A stretch of DNA of 5,782 nt, from positions 1 to 5,782 of the forward strand of contig JBFLYA010000237.1 in NCBI GenBank assembly GCA_040757115.1, read 5' to 3'. This document shows positions 1 to 5,782 of the stretch, piece after piece. Under the pieces are notes generated by a model. The model was not told the DNA's origin and did no database searches. It worked only from the letters and a program-made list of their open reading frames with translations. Every line of letters starts with the position of its first letter. Position 1 is the first letter of the stretch. The DNA comes from a bacterium. Its GTDB lineage: Bacteria > UBA9089 > CG2-30-40-21 > SBAY01. The position numbers and the translations under genes are program-made.

Positions 1-128
1 TAGTTTATGGTTTATAGTTTATAGTTTATGGTGTATAGTTTATAGTTTATGGTTTATAGTTTATGGTTTATAGTTTATAGTCTATAGTCCTTCAACTATA
101 AACTATCAACTATAAACTATCAACTATC
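1..128. repeat. Palindromic heptamer array, copy 1
   Basis: Twelve tandem heptamers of the form tagttta/tggttta (1-84) lead into tagt, then the apex ccttc (89-93), then five inverted heptamers aactata/aactatc (94-128). The two halves are nearly reverse complementary next to the apex, so either strand could fold into a long AT-rich hairpin with a CCTTC or GAAGG loop. The forward arm is longer than the reverse arm, so the outer units would stay unpaired. It is the first structure downstream of clpP and might impede transcription. It lacks the GC stem and U-tract of a standard intrinsic terminator. Confidence 0.85.
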
Positions 129-237
129 TACTACCTTTCAGCGTTAAAATACTTGAAGCAAAGATATTACCAAATTCCTCCAACTTTTTGAGAAACCAAA
201 CTACTTCCTTTTTGAAATTTGATTTGTAATTTTGCAT
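124..237 (-). CDS. Small 37-aa ORF inside repeat element, copy 1
   Basis: The frame starts with ATG at 237 and ends with TAG at 124-126, inside the reverse arm of the hairpin array. The product begins MQNYKSNFKK, has a likely amphipathic helical middle (EVVWFLKKLEEFGNIF) and ends SSILTLKGSR. The homologous ORF at 5498-5611 is also 37 codons with no indels, and 31 of 37 residues match. No Shine-Dalgarno sequence precedes the ATG; the upstream bases are the AT heptamer array. Most differences between copies change the amino acid, so selection for protein function is not shown. The tail faintly resembles the C-terminus of small four-helix-bundle (S23/TIGR02436-like) proteins, which raises the possibility of an internally deleted remnant. 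That resemblance is from memory and weak. Confidence 0.25.
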   Translation of the reverse strand: MQNYKSNFKKEVVWFLKKLEEFGNIFASSILTLKGSR

Positions 238-240
238 TTT

Positions 241-279
241 GATATTTATATTTGATATTTAATATTTGATATTTATTTG
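241..279. repeat. GATATTT-type AT-rich heptamer array, copy 1
   Basis: Degenerate repeats of gatattt/atttgat with a period near 7 lie directly upstream of the small ORF's ATG. The matching array in copy 2 (5615-5661) is longer and more regular. The repeat character fades into the first codons of the ORF. Confidence 0.75.
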
Positions 280-324
280 TTGTCTCCCCCAAATCCTATT
301 TTGCAGAACCCTATTCTTGTTCCT

Positions 325-918
325 TTATTTTTTTTCCTTCCTTGTTACCATAACTTCATCTATTATTCCGTATTCTTTTGCCTGTTCGGCAGACATAAAG
401 AAATCGCGGTCAGTATCTCTTTCTATTCTTTCTAAAGGTTGATGTGTATGTTTTTCTAATATTTTATTTAATATTTCCCGCATTCTAATAATCTCGCGAG
501 CTTGAATATCAATATCCGTTGCCTGTCCTTGAACACCACCCAGTGGTTGATGAATCATAATTCTGGCATGAGGTAAAGCATAGCGTTTACCTTTTGTGCC
601 TGCGGCTAAAAGTAAGGCGCCCATACTTGCCGCCTGTCCAATACATATCGTGGCAATATCTGATTTAATATACTGCATCGTATCATAAATTGCCAGTCCT
701 GCAGTGACTACTCCTCCTGGATTATTAACATATAAGTTTATTTCCTTGTCAGGATTATCCGCTTCAAGGAAAAGAAGTTGGGCAATGATTAGATTAGCCA
801 CATCATCATCAATTAATGAGCCAATAAAAATTATTCGTTCTTTTAAAAGTCGCGAAAATATATCATACCCTCGCTCTCCTCGATTACTTTGTTCTACCAC
901 CATTGGAACTAAAGCCAT
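325..918 (-). CDS. clpP: ATP-dependent Clp protease proteolytic subunit ClpP
   Basis: ClpP is the cytoplasmic serine peptidase that forms a two-ring tetradecameric chamber and degrades proteins unfolded by ClpX or ClpA/C-type ATPases. The 197-aa product has the family length and begins [10 protein letters not shown], which matches the mature E. coli N-terminus, so there appears to be no long propeptide. The catalytic triad is Ser98 (GQAASMGA), His123 (MIHQPLGG) and Asp172 (ERDTDRDFF). The oxyanion-hole glycines are in NNPGG (65-69), where most relatives have NSPGG. The ATG at 918 follows the tig stop after 3 nt, and AAGGAGG lies 9 nt upstream, inside the last tig codons. The gene is the last of the operon: the 324 nt downstream contain no clpX, no convincing terminator, and mostly repeat sequence. 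Confidence 0.98.
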
Positions 919-921
919 TGT

Positions 922-2223
922 TTATTTCCTCCTTTTTTCCTCACATTTTTTAATATCGGCAATTTCGAGTAAAAAATTAAGTGTTTTTTGCATTCTCAAT
1001 TCTTCCATCAGAATTGCCTTTTGTTGGTTATCTTCAAGATATTCTTTTATCTTTTGTGGTTGTGTTCTAAAATTATCTTTTACCAGGATTTCATATTCTT
1101 CATTTTCTATTTTAATATTTTCCTTTTGTGCGATTGCATCTAAAATCAAATATTTCTTTACCCGCTCCATCGCCTGGGGCCTGAATTCATCCCGACAATC
1201 CTCAATAGTCATATTTTTCTTTTTAAGATAATCATTAAGTTCAAATCCTTGTGATTGTAAATTATTATGGAGGTTAACCACCAGATAATCAATTTCTCTT
1301 TCTACTAATACCTTAGGTAGAGGGAAAGAGTGTTGTGAAATTAAAAGTGTTGTAAGTTCGTCTTTTAATTTTTCTGTTGACTCAAGTTCTGCGGCTTCAA
1401 TAAGGTCTTTTTTAAATGCCTCTTTTAATTCTTTAATCGTATCAAATTGACCCAAATCTTTAGCAAATTCATCATCTAAAACTGGTAATTTTCTTTCTTT
1501 GACTTCATTAATTTTTACCTTAAATGTTACCTTTTGTCCCGCCATATTAGGGTCAGAGTATTCTTTTGATAACTTAATTTTAAAGGTTTTTTCCTTACCT
1601 TTTTTGAGACCAAATAATTGTTGTTCAAACTCTTGAGGGAAGATTTTTTTACCCACCTCTAATAAAAAATCTTTGTGACTTCCATCAGGCAGTGGTTTGT
1701 TATCCTTGAAACTCTCAAAATCAAAAATAACAATGCTCTTTTTCCCAATAGGTTTTTCCACTACCTCTATTGGTGCATATTTTTCCTGGAGTCTGTGGAG
1801 TCCATCATCCACATCTTTATCCGTAATATTGGTCACCTTTTTGGTAAGTGGAATTCCATGGTAAGTTGTAAGTTCAATTTCAGGTAATACTTCTACTTTC
1901 GCTACAAAAGAAAACGGTTCATCTTTCTTGATATAATTGACCTCTTCTATCTTTGCCTGGGAAATTATCCGGATATTTTTTTCTTTTATTGCTTGTAGAT
2001 AGCGATTAGAAATAAGGTTTCCTATAACTTCTTTTTCTACCGCTGGGCCGTATCGTGTTTCTAAAACCTGACGAGGCACTTTACCTTTTCTAAAACCTTG
2101 AAGTTTAGCCGTTTGAGTTAATTTCTGATATTTTTTATCAAATTCTTGCTCAAGTTCTTCCTTAGAAACTGTAATTTTTAATGTTAATTCACATTCATTG
2201 TGGTCAATTGTTTCTAGTTCCAT
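922..2223 (-). CDS. tig: Trigger factor (ribosome-associated chaperone / peptidyl-prolyl isomerase)
   Basis: Trigger factor docks on ribosomal protein L23 at the exit tunnel and shelters nascent chains; its middle domain is an FKBP-type prolyl isomerase. The 433-aa length is typical. The N-terminal domain (about 1-115) carries the ribosome-binding signature GFRKGKVP at 43-50. The PPIase domain spans roughly 155-245 (with VIFDFESF, LLEVGKKIFPQEFEQQLFG and the strand KVTFKVKINEVKERKLP). A helical, charged C-terminal domain (about 250-430) forms the chaperone arms. The start is ATG at 2223, immediately after the rsmE TAA with no spacer, so translation is probably coupled to rsmE. The last codons double as the clpP ribosome binding site. 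The tig-clpP pairing is common in bacteria; linkage to the alpha operon is less usual. Domain limits are approximate. Confidence 0.97.
   Translation of the reverse strand: MELETIDHNECELTLKITVSKEELEQEFDKKYQKLTQTAKLQGFRKGKVPRQVLETRYGPAVEKEVIGNLISNRYLQAIKEKNIRIISQAKIEEVNYIKKDEPFSFVAKVEVLPEIELTTYHGIPLTKKVTNITDKDVDDGLHRLQEKYAPIEVVEKPIGKKSIVIFDFESFKDNKPLPDGSHKDFLLEVGKKIFPQEFEQQLFGLKKGKEKTFKIKLSKEYSDPNMAGQKVTFKVKINEVKERKLPVLDDEFAKDLGQFDTIKELKEAFKKDLIEAAELESTEKLKDELTTLLISQHSFPLPKVLVEREIDYLVVNLHNNLQSQGFELNDYLKKKNMTIEDCRDEFRPQAMERVKKYLILDAIAQKENIKIENEEYEILVKDNFRTQPQKIKEYLEDNQQKAILMEELRMQKTLNFLLEIADIKKCEEKRRK
928..934 (-). promoter_or_regulatory. clpP ribosome binding site inside the tig 3' end
   Basis: AAGGAGG is formed by the tig codons for the terminal Lys-Arg-Arg-Lys, 9 nt before the clpP ATG. 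The extreme C-terminus of trigger factor is therefore constrained by, or created by, the clpP Shine-Dalgarno, and ribosomes finishing tig are placed to restart on clpP. Confidence 0.85.
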
Positions 2224-2967
2224 TTATCCTATCATCCCTAATTCATATAATATGATACTTTCTGTAACAATACTTGCGGATTCACATCTCAGAATATTTG
2301 CCCCAAGTGATACAGGAATAATTCCTTTAATTTGGACTGCGGTTATTTCCTCCTCAGTAAATCCTCCTTCTGGACCAACAAAAACAGCAATCTTTTTTAG
2401 TAAGGTAACATCCCTATTGAGAAAAACTTCTCGTAAGGGTGTTTTTGCATTCTCATATAAAATTAACCCTAAATCAACTTCTTTTATTAACTCTAATGAG
2501 GTTTTGAGATTAGTTACAGGATAAATTATAGGGATTATACATCGTTGACATTGAGATGAGGAGGCTTTAGCTATTTTTTGCCACCGTGTGAGTTTTGTCG
2601 ATTCGTTTTTTAAATTTATCAATGACCTTTGTGTTTTAACTGGAATTATTCTTGTTACACCCAATTCAGTGGATTTACTTATTATCAAATCCATCCTGGC
2701 TATTCTGGGTAGTGCCTGAAGTAATGTTAATTCTACTTTTTGCGGTGGATGGATAATTTTTTCAACAATGTTAGTTTTAACTTTATCCGCGGCAATCGAA
2801 GTAATCGTTGCGTGATATTCATTTCCCAAACCATCTAACGCAATAATCTTATCTTTTTCTTTTAGCCGAAGGACATTTTTGAGATGATGAATATCATCTT
2901 TATCCACAATATCAACATTATTTTTAACTATACTTTCAGGATTGACAAAAAACCTGCGATGCATCAT
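2224..2967 (-). CDS. rsmE: 16S rRNA (uracil1498-N3)-methyltransferase RsmE
   Basis: RsmE uses S-adenosylmethionine to methylate N3 of U1498 in 16S rRNA, near the decoding centre of the assembled 30S subunit. The 247-aa product has the family layout: an N-terminal PUA-like RNA-binding domain (about 1-72, starting MMHRRFFV), then a SPOUT (trefoil-knot) domain. Visible SPOUT motifs are KSTELGV (98-104), VFVGPEGGFTEEE (195-207) and SLGANILRCESA (220-231). The last varies from the common LG.RILR.ETA with Cys-Glu-Ser. The QCQRCIIP segment (139-146) corresponds to the usual Q..R..P motif. The ATG at 2967 overlaps the rplQ TGA in an ATGA junction; a second ATG follows directly at 2964, so the start could be one codon later. 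No strong Shine-Dalgarno is present, which fits coupled translation. Earlier annotations call this family DUF558/YggJ. Confidence 0.95.
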   Translation of the reverse strand: MMHRRFFVNPESIVKNNVDIVDKDDIHHLKNVLRLKEKDKIIALDGLGNEYHATITSIAADKVKTNIVEKIIHPPQKVELTLLQALPRIARMDLIISKSTELGVTRIIPVKTQRSLINLKNESTKLTRWQKIAKASSSQCQRCIIPIIYPVTNLKTSLELIKEVDLGLILYENAKTPLREVFLNRDVTLLKKIAVFVGPEGGFTEEEITAVQIKGIIPVSLGANILRCESASIVTESIILYELGMIG

Positions 2968-3317
2968 TCTACTAATTCAATTAAAGACATCTCTGCTCCA
3001 TCACCGATTCTTTTGCCAACTTTCAGTATTCTCGTGTATCCTCCATTTCGATTCTGGAATCTTGGTCCAATAACTTCAAATAATTTTTTCCCTACATCTT
3101 TACTTTTAACATAAGTCAGTACTTGTCTTCTTGAATGTAGGTCGCCGATTTTTGTCAGAGAGATTAATTTATCTGCTAACCCGGTTAATTCCTTTGTTTT
3201 GGCTGAAGTTGTTGCAATCTTCCCATGTCGAAATAATTCGGTGACAAGATTATTTAACAGAGCCTTTTTATGGCTTATGGTGCGATTAAGTTTTCTACCT
3301 TTTTTTAAATGACGCAA
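2964..3317 (-). CDS. rplQ: 50S ribosomal protein L17 (TTG start)
   Basis: L17 is a 50S protein that sits near the bottom of the subunit around the peptide exit region. The 117-aa product has the usual bacterial core length and conserved segments: MRHLKKGRKLNRTISHKKAL at the N-terminus, KIATTSAKTKEL (33-44), and GGYTRILKVGKRIGDGAEMS followed by IELVE at the end. The family N-terminus MRH is encoded with TTG at 3315-3317 as initiator; no in-frame ATG or GTG exists between it and the Shine-Dalgarno AAGGAG (3330-3335), which is 12 nt away. It lies 41 nt downstream of rpoA, as in classical alpha operons, and its TGA overlaps the rsmE ATG by 4 nt. Nothing appears truncated. Confidence 0.97.
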   Translation of the reverse strand: MRHLKKGRKLNRTISHKKALLNNLVTELFRHGKIATTSAKTKELTGLADKLISLTKIGDLHSRRQVLTYVKSKDVGKKLFEVIGPRFQNRNGGYTRILKVGKRIGDGAEMSLIELVE

Positions 3318-3329
3318 TTGTATTTCACA

Positions 3330-3335
3330 CTCCTT
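3330..3335 (-). promoter_or_regulatory. rplQ ribosome binding site with long spacer
   Basis: AAGGAG lies 12 nt before the TTG initiator, longer than the usual 5-9 nt. It still supports the TTG start because no other in-frame initiator is available and the L17 N-terminus MRH is conserved. Confidence 0.7.
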
Positions 3336-3358
3336 ATCTTTGGTAGGCTAAATAGTTA

Positions 3359-4357
3359 CTATTTCTTATTATTTTCTAATAAATGGTCTATATCTTTCAT
3401 TCCTAATGAAACTCCATAAGTGGCTAATTTATTTTTTATTTCTGTGAGTGATTTTTTACCGAAATTTCGAGTTTTTAACATATCATTTTCGGTTTTTTTA
3501 ACCAATTCACCTAATATTTTAATATTAGCGGCTTTAAGGCAATTAGACGACCTGACTGATAATTCTAATTCTTCGATGTTCATTTTTAAAATATTCTTTA
3601 ATCTTTCAGTTTCTTTATCCACTATTGGTTCTTCAGATTTGTCTTCTTCCTCCTTAATATCAATAAAAGCCGCGATTTGGTCTTTGATAAGTCTGGCGGC
3701 CTGGGCTACGGCTTGATGAGGTTGTAGAACTCCATTTGTCCACACTTCTAATATCAACCGTTCATAATCGGTCATTTGTCCTACGCGGACACCTTCTACT
3801 GAATAGGCAACGCGAACTACTGGAGAAAAAAAGGAATCTATGCATATAACTCCGATTGATTCCTGTCCTGTTTTATTCTGTTCAGCTGATACATAACCGT
3901 ATCCTTTCGCTATTTCTAATTCCATATTTAATTTTCCATCAGTATCCATTGTGGCAATATGGAGATTTTTGTTAAGTATTTCTACTTGTGGTGGACATTG
4001 AAAATCCTCTCCCGTTACTTCTCCTTCTCCTTCTTTGTTTAAGTAAATTTTTACTGCTTCAGAATCATGTAATTTTAAAATCAATTTTTTCAGATTTAAA
4101 ATTATCTCCGGAACATCTTCAACTACCCCTGGAATAGTAGAGAATTCATGAAGAACACCCTCTATTTTTACCGAGGTAATCGCCGCACCTTCTATTGCGG
4201 TTAATAACATTCTTCGCAGGCTATTGCCAATAGTTGTTCCTCTACCTGGTTCAAATGGTTCTGCAATTAATTTACCGTAGCTATCAGTTAAAGTTTCTTT
4301 TTCCCATTCTATTTTTTTAATCCTTTTTAAGGCACTTATTCCGCCCTTACTACCCAT
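3359..4357 (-). CDS. rpoA: DNA-directed RNA polymerase subunit alpha
   Basis: The alpha dimer is the scaffold on which beta and beta' assemble; its C-terminal domain contacts UP elements and activators. The 332-aa product is full length. The N-terminal domain (about 12-240) holds [15 protein letters not shown] (38-52) and [15 protein letters not shown] (68-82), the dimer and beta-contact region. An acidic flexible linker follows (about 234-252, [10 protein letters not shown]). The C-terminal domain (about 253-325) retains [11 protein letters not shown] (269-279), which aligns with the E. coli DNA-contact residues R265, N268, C269 and K271, and the helix-hairpin-helix [17 protein letters not shown] (295-311). 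UP-element recognition is therefore probably intact. The ATG at 4357 has AAGGAGG 13 nt upstream. The 115-nt gap to rpsD contains a heptamer array. An out-of-frame ATG at 4368 nearer the Shine-Dalgarno opens only a 10-codon frame. Confidence 0.98.
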
Positions 4358-4370
4358 AATTTTTTCATAA

Positions 4371-4377
4371 CCTCCTT
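4371..4377 (-). promoter_or_regulatory. rpoA ribosome binding site with long spacer
   Basis: A strong AAGGAGG lies 13 nt before the rpoA ATG and only 6 nt downstream of the heptamer array at 4384-4444. A competing ATG (4366-4368) lies 2 nt after it, in another frame that ends after 10 codons. Confidence 0.75.
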
Positions 4378-4383
4378 AATTTT

Positions 4384-4444
4384 GGTAATTGGTAACTGGT
4401 AACTGGTAATTGGTAACTGGTGAATGGTAATTAGTTACCAATTA
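4384..4444. repeat. GGTAACT/GGTAATT heptamer array with inverted end, between rpsD and rpoA
   Basis: Seven tandem heptamers run from 4384 to 4432: ggtaatt, ggtaact, ggtaact, ggtaatt, ggtaact, ggtgaat, ggtaatt. They end in the inverted segment agttaccaatta (4433-4444). That segment is the exact reverse complement of taattggtaact, which occurs at both 4386-4397 and 4407-4418, so two mutually exclusive 12-bp stems (loops of 35 or 14 nt) can form in the rpsD-rpoA intercistronic RNA. The array is transcribed with the operon and ends close to the rpoA Shine-Dalgarno. Copy number in such arrays can change by replication slippage; whether this alters rpoA expression is unknown. Confidence 0.85.
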
Positions 4445-4472
4445 TCTGCTTTTAATTTTATGAAACCATATT

Positions 4473-5096
4473 CTATTTTGAATATAACGCCACGATTAAC
4501 GATTCATTAACTGGCTGGTCAATATCCTGTCTATTTGGCAATGAAACTACATTGGCTAATAATTTATCTTCATCCATTGCTAACCAACTCGGTATCCCTT
4601 TAGGTGAGGCGATTGTCTTTAATATTTCTTTAATTCTATCCTGGCTTTTGGGTTTTACGGTAATGGTATCATTTGCCTTGACTAAAAATGAAGGAATATT
4701 AACCTTTCTGCCATTAACGATTATGTGGCTATGTCTAACTAATTGTCGTGCCTGTGCCCTTGATTCTGCCCACCCTAAGCGATAGACAATATTATCTAAT
4801 CGTCGCTCTAACAAGATTAACAAATTTTCGCCAGTAATGCCTTTTTGAGTAACAGCTTTGGTGTAATAATTTCTAAATTGTTGTTCAAGGATTCCATAGA
4901 TATGGCGAACCTTTTGTTTCTCTCGCAATTGAAGGGCATAATCGGATACTTTTTTCCGTTCCTGACCTTTTAATCCTGGTGCATAGTTGCGTTTGTTAAG
5001 TGAACATTTTTCTGAGATACAACGCGTTCCTTTTAAAAAAAGTTTCTCTCCACTTCGTCGGCAAACCTTACATTTTGATTCAGTATATCGTGCCAT
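4473..5096 (-). CDS. rpsD: 30S ribosomal protein S4 (zinc-binding Cys4 type)
   Basis: S4 is a primary 16S rRNA binding protein that starts 30S assembly (5' domain), helps shape the mRNA entry channel, and autoregulates its operon in some bacteria. The 207-aa product is of normal length. The N-terminal segment keeps four cysteines, C9-x2-C12-x13-C26-x4-C31, the same spacing as the zinc site of Thermus S4, so this is a C+ (zinc) form. The S4 RNA-binding domain covers about 96-160 ([20 protein letters not shown], then [16 protein letters not shown]). The ATG at 5096 is preceded directly by an in-frame TAA, which fixes it as the first start in frame; AGGAGG lies 12 nt upstream. It is the first gene of the transcript, with its own promoter about 40 nt upstream, instead of following rpsM-rpsK as in a classical alpha operon. 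Confidence 0.98.
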
Positions 5097-5108
5097 TTAC
5101 TTAATCAT

Positions 5109-5114
5109 CCTCCT
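5109..5114 (-). promoter_or_regulatory. rpsD ribosome binding site with long spacer
   Basis: AGGAGG lies 12 nt before the rpsD ATG. The spacer contains ATG ATT AAG TAA in the rpsD frame, a three-codon frame that stops right at the rpsD start. Its ATG abuts the Shine-Dalgarno with no spacer, so it is unlikely to be used. Confidence 0.75.
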
Positions 5115-5137
5115 GATTTTTATGAGATAATTATATT

Positions 5138-5191
5138 ATATTATCACATATTTATAAATTTGTCAACATTTTTTGAATAAAATTTTTCAAC
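5138..5191 (-). promoter_or_regulatory. Sigma70-type promoter of the rpsD-clpP operon, with AT-rich UP-like region
   Basis: On the minus strand a perfect -35 TTGACA (5161-5166) is followed after 17 nt by TAATAT as the -10 (5138-5143). The bases upstream of the -35 (about 5167-5191) are A/T tracts that resemble an UP element, as expected for a strong ribosomal promoter. Transcription would begin near 5131, giving a leader of about 35 nt that holds the Shine-Dalgarno. This leaves no room for a large structured S4-binding leader on this transcript. Overlapping TATAAT-like hexamers further downstream make the exact -10 less certain. Confidence 0.8.
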
Positions 5192-5372
5192 CTGTGCAGT
5201 TAGGTTTAAAATTAGTAACTATTCACCACGAAGAGCACGAAGGACACGAAGATGTTACAGAACAGATCTCTTTATGCTTTTTTGGTGGTGTCTGAAAATA
5301 ACTCTAATAGTGAAATCTATGCAGATTTGGTGTCCAAAAGGGATTTCCTCCAAAGAGCAAAATGCAAAACTC
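5167..5372. other. Intergenic stretch without a recognisable gene, upstream of the rpsD promoter
   Basis: Apart from the UP-like A/T tracts and the 9-nt repeat, this stretch shows no convincing coding sequence. Open frames are short, the longest being 42 codons from an ATG at 5252. The twelve bases at 5358-5369 (caaaatgcaaaa) are repeated in inverted form at 5604-5615 across the second element copy. Confidence 0.5.
5227..5253. repeat. 9-nt tandem repeat of the cacgaagNN type
   Basis: Three consecutive units, cacgaagag, cacgaagga and cacgaagat, are preceded by ttcac. Similar strings are familiar in intergenic DNA and at the 5' ends of small ORFs in many environmental bacterial genomes; that is recalled, not searched. 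In the plus-strand frame starting at 5224 the repeat runs into H-E-D-V-T-E-Q-I and then a stop at 5293-5295. This looks slightly like the start of a GxxExxY-family protein, so the segment may be a gene relic. Confidence 0.6.
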
Positions 5373-5477
5373 GTTTATAGTTTAGAGTTTATAGTTTATA
5401 GTGTATAGTGTATAGTGTATAGTCCTTCAACTATCAACTATCAACTATCAACTATAAACTATCAACTATAAACTATC
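5373..5477. repeat. Palindromic heptamer array, copy 2
   Basis: Seven forward units, gtttata/gtgtata (5373-5421), the apex gtccttc (5422-5428) and seven inverted units, aactatc/aactata (5429-5477), form a near-symmetrical hairpin. The apex string agtccttcaactat is identical to copy 1 although unit number and sequence in the arms differ. Confidence 0.85.
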
Positions 5478-5497
5478 TTTGCCAAAGTTCAGTAAAA

Positions 5498-5611
5498 TTA
5501 TCTCTTTCCTTTCAGCGTTAAAATACCTGAAGCAAAAATATTACCAAATTCCTCCAACTCTTTGAGAAACCCTGCTACTTCCTCTTTGAAATTTGATTTG
5601 TAATTTTGCAT
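5498..5611 (-). CDS. Small 37-aa ORF inside repeat element, copy 2
   Basis: The frame starts with ATG at 5611 and ends with TAA at 5498-5500. The product begins MQNYKSNFKE, continues EVAGFLKELEEFGNIF and ends SGILTLKGKR. It differs from copy 1 at six residues: K10E, V13A, W14G, K18E, S29G and S36K. The frame has no indels relative to copy 1, but no Shine-Dalgarno precedes it. The central part is likely an amphipathic helix. Whether it is translated is unknown. It could be a genuine micro-protein, an internally deleted remnant of a repeat-borne small helical protein, or chance. Confidence 0.25.
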   Translation of the reverse strand: MQNYKSNFKEEVAGFLKELEEFGNIFASGILTLKGKR

Positions 5612-5614
5612 TTT

Positions 5615-5661
5615 GATATTTATATTTGATATTTATATTTGATATTTGATATTTGATATTT
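5615..5661. repeat. GATATTT-type AT-rich heptamer array, copy 2
   Basis: Repeats of gatattt with period 7 are clearest at 5641-5661, with an atattt variant phase before that. The array is longer than in copy 1 and lies directly upstream of the small ORF. Confidence 0.75.
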
Positions 5662-5727
5662 AACCTGCAATCGGCAAGTGAGCTAACCAGAATAGCGTTA
5701 ACCCCTTGATATATCAGTAGTTAATCT

Positions 5728-5753
5728 GTTAAAAAATCTGTAGATTTTTTAAC
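5728..5753. other. Perfect 26-bp palindrome (12-bp arms)
   Basis: The arms gttaaaaaatct (5728-5739) and agattttttaac (5742-5753) are exact reverse complements separated by gt. Symmetry and AT richness fit a protein-binding operator or a weak hairpin. The stem has few G-C pairs and no separate U-tract, so a normal intrinsic terminator is unlikely. A TTGACA hexamer follows on the plus strand at 5762-5767; any -10 partner would be outside the window. Confidence 0.6.
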
Positions 5754-5782
5754 AAAAATGATTGACATTGGCCTCCTTCTAT

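Follow-up and report, generated by a model that had tools for sequence, protein, structure and literature searches.

Two direct repeats around an rpsD–clpP gene block as probable distinct miniature transposons, one from a family often found just before Shine–Dalgarno sequences

Short, AT-rich, non-coding bacterial repeats such as BOX, RUP and SPRITE, Correia, ERIC and MITEAba12 carry terminal inverted repeats, target duplications and stable hairpins (PMC3049150, PMC6382973), and those of pneumococci are over-represented between convergent genes (PMC3049150). Miniature inverted-repeat transposable elements (MITEs) may also share the ends of an insertion sequence, as with the ISAba3-like members of the IS1 family, which combine GGTGGTGT... 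ends with 8-bp duplications; published IS1-family ends of the form GGTGGTGTTTCAAA... or GGTGGTGTTTCAAAAAG likewise go with 8-bp duplications (PMC6382973). Other repeats are direct arrays of 7-bp units that lie near start codons and change length in 7-nt steps, namely TAACTGA of Beggiatoaceae, STRR of cyanobacteria and GGGAATC of Xanthomonas (PMC4679880, PMC4692102). Here we compare with these systems the two repeats of contig C237 (JBFLYA010000237.1; 5,782 bp, analysed whole and called the window below), part of a draft bacterial genome of 4.32 Mb in 462 contigs that is 99.9% complete. The repeats lie on either side of six minus-strand genes in the order rpsD, rpoA, rplQ, rsmE, tig and clpP, and since the window is the complete contig, both stand at contig ends.

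The pair had been described as diverged copies of one element. To judge from their sequences, the two are different mobile units with a common interior. They share a 140-nt core in direct orientation, preceded in each by inverted 7-bp arrays and followed by an TTTGATATTT array (Tandem Repeats Finder, TRF; Table 1). Their ends set them apart: copy 1 has the right end of a family that we call B, whereas copy 2 has the left end of another, family A. Both elements are also longer than the original prediction had drawn them. Copy 1 runs to 313 rather than 279 and closes with the terminal repeat TTTTGCAGAACCCTA, 11 nt from the clpP stop codon, where unique sequence adjoins the family-B right end. 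For copy 2 the start moves from 5373 to 5284, 187 bp upstream of the rpsD start codon. These different ends and different flanks agree with the earlier view that the pair is no artefact of contig circularity. The predicted hairpins are very stable on the two strands (z −8.0 and −6.9 for copy 1, −7.2 and −6.2 for copy 2). Neither copy contains an open reading frame (ORF) of 60 amino acids or more, and no Rfam family matched in the window. We regard it as probable that the two repeats are independent MITE insertions, family A having an IS1-like partner and family B sitting at a Shine–Dalgarno region, with the repeats accounting for the contig ends.

To separate the families, we compared a solo 200-bp A form, a chimera and a B form base by base; the genome sample that was read covers 2.26 Mb on 141 contigs, about half of the genome. 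In the genome at least 40 full or near-full matches to the core were scored, from 255 first-look candidates, so the core is no local pair. The family-A left end has 65 exact matches, a few of them from the IS1-like element described below, and the family-B right end has 98 with at most one mismatch. Intact MITE copies measure about 199–494 bp and are without coding capacity.

Family B starts with AG(A/G)GTTCTGCAAAAC and ends with TATTTTGCAGAACCCTA, and the terminal inverted repeat AG(G/A)GTTCTGCAAAA is found at both ends. Target duplications of 10–14 bp flank 17 of the 22 two-ended copies; most of them differ from copy to copy, which identifies the copies as independent insertions. A gene start with a Shine–Dalgarno motif is faced by 21 of 32 usable left ends, at a distance of 13–23 nt, by none of 30 right ends and by 4.2% of random intergenic points. 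When start codons were counted without regard to the motif, the figures were 21 of 32, 0 of 30 and 10%, respectively, and several of the 11 left-end misses are short genes with a clear Shine–Dalgarno site. The spacing is narrow: the duplication starts 5 or 6 nt before the Shine–Dalgarno core in 12 of the 14 copies with a recognised core. About half of the targets hold TTGGTAA repeats, which belong to a 7-bp hairpin family, H1, and at targets outside H1 the spacing is almost unchanged (3–6 nt). In a second species of the genus, both family-B left ends that were read also face a Shine–Dalgarno motif. Unlike the pneumococcal repeats, family B lies just before gene starts, in a single orientation and at a fixed spacing. 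We lean, by a little, towards directed transposition, in one orientation, to a position 5–6 nt before Shine–Dalgarno sequences, which would rewrite 5′ leaders throughout the genome and spare the start region. The family-B transposase, or a partner of it, would then recognise the ribosome-binding-site region.

Copy 1 offered a prediction: if it is a family-B element, its missing left end should face the start of a gene in line with clpP. In bacteria, clpX commonly follows clpP. Searching the genome for clpX gave a sole match over the cut-off, at C246:313–1518, and search matches place a family-B left end at C246:214–235, on the opposite strand and facing clpX. Copy 1 is very probably a family-B insertion between clpP and clpX, and the sequences make a join of C237 to C246 well supported. 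With clpX beyond it, copy 1 would stand inside a line of genes and not at its edge.

Family A starts with GGTGGTGTCTGAAAATAAC, ends with GCTAGATTAAGACACCACC and has the terminal inverted repeat GGTGGTGTCT at both ends; its solo form has a different interior from the chimera. Exact 8-bp target duplications flank 17 of 28 two-ended copies, against 4 of 756 mismatched left–right pairs, and the targets that were duplicated are rich in AT and follow a GAAATTTC-like pattern. Family-A ends also border a 1,270-bp element on contig C232 (L189:1480–2749), which has GGTGGTGTCTGAA ends, is flanked on both sides by the 8-bp duplication AAATATTG and contains InsA-like and InsB-like frames in the expected order. 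Its transposase matched profiles with scores that are all below the curated cut-offs (NF033558, E = 1.8e-4; PF03400, E = 5e-4; PF12759, E = 0.044), and we therefore call it IS1-like. On C66, an IS481-like frame beside an GGTGGTGTCTGAAAATAG end was set aside because the frame is a fragment and because the IS1-like frame was found with this end on several other contigs, once with both ends. IS256-like (L189:2–484) and IS66-like (L189:1119–1511) frames lie beside the IS1-like element in a transposon-rich stretch. Family A resembles the MITEs that share ends with ISAba3-like elements (PMC6382973), but the transposase is divergent, and the ends appear to have captured the body of another mini-transposon.

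This proposed capture concerns the chimera, whose intact copies (336–482 bp) have family-A ends around a family-B interior and family-A-type duplications. In its right part the family-B right end is complete and passes straight into family-A sequence, and the family-B left end is missing. A family-B copy may have jumped into a family-A copy and then lost its left end, and the composite would have spread through the IS1-like transposase. Copy 2 is such a chimera upstream of rpsD, itself struck by the repeat at the end of the contig. That repeat is probably an insertion sequence, and its occurrences on three other contigs all lie less than 200 bp from a contig end (C56, C72 and C124); it has the terminal inverted repeat GTTAAAAAATC/GATTTTTTAAC and was seen only near contig ends.

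One family-A chimera is inserted at an identical position in the two species of the genus, with 159 of 160 flank bases identical. Its 7-bp arrays differ between the two species in unit number and in sequence, and this comparison indicates that the arrays change faster than their surroundings. TAACTGA, STRR and GGGAATC are simple arrays whose means of transfer are not known, whereas here inverted arrays form a putative hairpin within mobile elements and the array sequence varies.

Several points weigh against the reading set out so far. The H1 repeats themselves sit at Shine–Dalgarno sites and could pass their position on to family B. The gene starts used in the placement counts are ORFs that carry a motif but no annotation. 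Those counts come from the very data that first suggested the rule, and the only independent checks are the clpX test and the second species. No transposase with family-B ends was found in the DNA read, and for family A the IS1 models match the partner only below their curated cut-offs. No duplicate of the copy 1 flank TTCTTGTTC was found beside a family-B left end, and a search for it beside Shine–Dalgarno motifs returned one apparently unrelated match and none at clpX; the copy 1 duplication is therefore unconfirmed and the join of the two contigs not proven. Literature searches for MITEs or insertion sequences targeted to Shine–Dalgarno sites found none, although absence there is not proof.

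The same placement could arise by sorting if family B inserted anywhere between genes and selection kept only the copies just upstream of a Shine–Dalgarno site, in the orientation that allows or improves expression, for example because the hairpin undergoes RNA processing or a promoter points outward. Most family-B copies do occupy gaps between co-directional genes, which offer few harmless positions, and the hairpins are very stable (z −6 to −8 on either strand in the two window copies); one copy has 7 promoter-like matches against 2.0 in shuffled sequences, though these arise from the AT-rich arrays. Selection should nevertheless permit many positions further upstream, as most gaps leave tens of nucleotides, yet 12 of 14 duplications start at 5 or 6 nt. 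Nor does family A, in the same genome, show a preference for Shine–Dalgarno sites: 7 of 41 left and 3 of 34 right ends face one, at scattered distances. We therefore hold sorting by selection to be a tentative and rather unlikely account of the pattern.

Directed or sorted, the insertions are numerous enough to explain the pair in the window. Parts of the elements form 119 clusters in the sample, fragments included and two of them in the window, or about 1 per 19 kb. Neighbouring clusters less than 8 kb apart occur 34 times, in direct and inverted orientation, a few being two parts of one copy, and a pair around a 5-kb block is thus expected from density. With clpX also probably lying beyond copy 1, the proposal that the repeats bracket the gene block is not supported. 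Recombination between the cores, which had been raised as a way to delete or duplicate the block, could in principle take place, but we saw no evidence that it has.

The clusters are, in addition, concentrated where the assembly breaks: 24% are no more than 300 bp away from a contig end, compared with 3% of randomly chosen positions, in line with the original prediction's warning of an assembly risk point. In a fragmented assembly, short contigs with repeats at both ends are therefore to be expected. The contig ends at both copies because repeats break short-read assemblies, and the apparent bracket around the gene block is largely a by-product of those breakpoints. The same concentration, together with several family-A copies that lack matching duplications as misjoins might produce, could suggest that the repeats are artefacts misjoined to contig ends. 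This we consider very improbable, because many copies lie deep in contigs with exact duplications on both sides and one insertion recurs in the second species with its flanks almost unchanged. A composite transposon, or a past duplication of the six-gene block, would fit the shared orientation, the similar interiors and the genes between, but we reject it as the least probable account of all, given that the copies come from different subfamilies with different ends, that density alone predicts such pairs, that no duplication common to the outer flanks is demonstrable, both outer ends being absent from the contig, and that clpX probably carries the gene line past copy 1.

Beyond this genome, a pattern scan of other genomes for the exact core motif gave no match. 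A sequence search did detect the core within the genus, as well as pieces of it in other families of the phylum. At loci L032, L037, L041, L045 and L033, which come from such families, core relatives have other surroundings (ACTTTGGCAAA / TTTGCCAAAGT); at L045 the relative lies just before the Shine–Dalgarno site of an rplI-like gene.

Table 1. Repeats and genes of the window, contig C237 (positions 1 to 5,782)
Feature	Start	End	Strand	Basis
Copy 1, family-B MITE, left part cut by contig start	1	313	+	core and right-end matches
Copy 1 array (TTTATAG)n, left arm of long hairpin	1	88	+	TRF; pairs with 92–133
Copy 1 array (TCAACTA)n, right hairpin arm	92	133	+	TRF, fold
Copy 1 core, common to family B and A–B chimera	122	261	+	genome matches 91–100% identical
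Copy 1 family-B right terminal inverted repeat TATTTTGCAGAACCCTA	297	313	+	genome matches; duplications abut TATTTTGCAGAACCCTA in intact copies
clpP	325	918	-	PF00574, E = 4e-87
tig (trigger factor)	922	2223	-	PF05697/PF05698
rsmE	2224	2967	-	PF04452
rplQ	2964	3317	-	PF01196
rpoA	3359	4357	-	PF01000, PF03118, PF01193
Third repeat element, member of 7-bp hairpin family H1, occupies the whole rpsD–rpoA gap	4382	4472	-	TRF; TAGGGCTTCACGAAATTA ... TTACCA
rpsD	4473	5096	-	PF00163, PF01479
Copy 2, A–B chimeric MITE, right end missing	5284	5661	+	family-A left part 5284–5340, junction 5344–5369, core 5509–5621
Copy 2 family-A left terminal inverted repeat GGTGGTGTCTGAAAATA	5284	5300	+	exact genome matches; common to IS1-like element
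Copy 2 inverted 7-bp arrays (TTTATAG)n / (TCAACTA)n	5373	5477	+	TRF
Copy 2 core	5496	5635	+	92% identity to copy 1 core
End of another multicopy repeat, interrupts copy 2 and ends contig	5662	5782	+	same stretch at C56:74–193, C72:7–125, C124:11037–11157

Pfam matches confirmed the order and identities given earlier for the six genes. In named genomes, a search with RpoA gave five loci from Candidatus Omnitrophota and one from Kiritimatiellae, with identities of about 50–66%, which makes Omnitrophota the probable phylum of this genome. The distant Omnitrophota loci have rpsD, rpoA and rplQ together, with an rpsK-like frame directly before rpsD, and around these genes the window's rsmE, tig and clpP found no match. 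A genome search placed rpsK at C36:8997–9326, outside C237, so the ribosomal operon is either interrupted at copy 2 or in an unusual order. Short CACGAAG-type repeats (caccacgaagagcacgaaggacacgaag) occupy 5221–5252, in the rpsD leader region.

Other repeats in this genome also have a 7-bp period or a link to Shine–Dalgarno sites. The H1 array between rpsD and rpoA ends near the rpoA Shine–Dalgarno site (CCTCC, 4371–4375), and its fold is weak (z −1.8). About 25 genes in the genome sample have an (A/G)TTACC array immediately ahead of their Shine–Dalgarno site, mostly at 7 nt, and 470 tandem arrays of the sample have a period of 7 bp or its multiples, with many different units, 7 being the commonest period. 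Among the regions upstream of about 1,000 Shine–Dalgarno sites, two large clusters, of 92 and 90 sites, contain repeats that keep register with the Shine–Dalgarno site. The repeat of one cluster ends in TATTTTCAGGAGAA, which has 156 copies with at most one mismatch, including 44 that lie no more than 15 nt from a start codon; this repeat seems to bring its own Shine–Dalgarno sequence. On C14, C47, C61, C62 and C68, many copies continue after TATTTTCAGGAGAA with a hairpin of the form CATG-stem-loop-stem-CACAAA, in which the stem sequence varies and pairing is kept.

The bracketing pair, as reported earlier, is ordinary for this genome; the placement of family B is less so. The placement rule has already been of use, in pointing to the contig that probably adjoins C237. 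If directed insertion by family B is true, the Shine–Dalgarno region would serve as an address in an unusual form of safe-haven targeting, in which every gene with a ribosome-binding site would be a low-cost site of fixed orientation. Many mRNA leaders, that of clpX probably among them, would thereby receive long, fast-changing hairpins.

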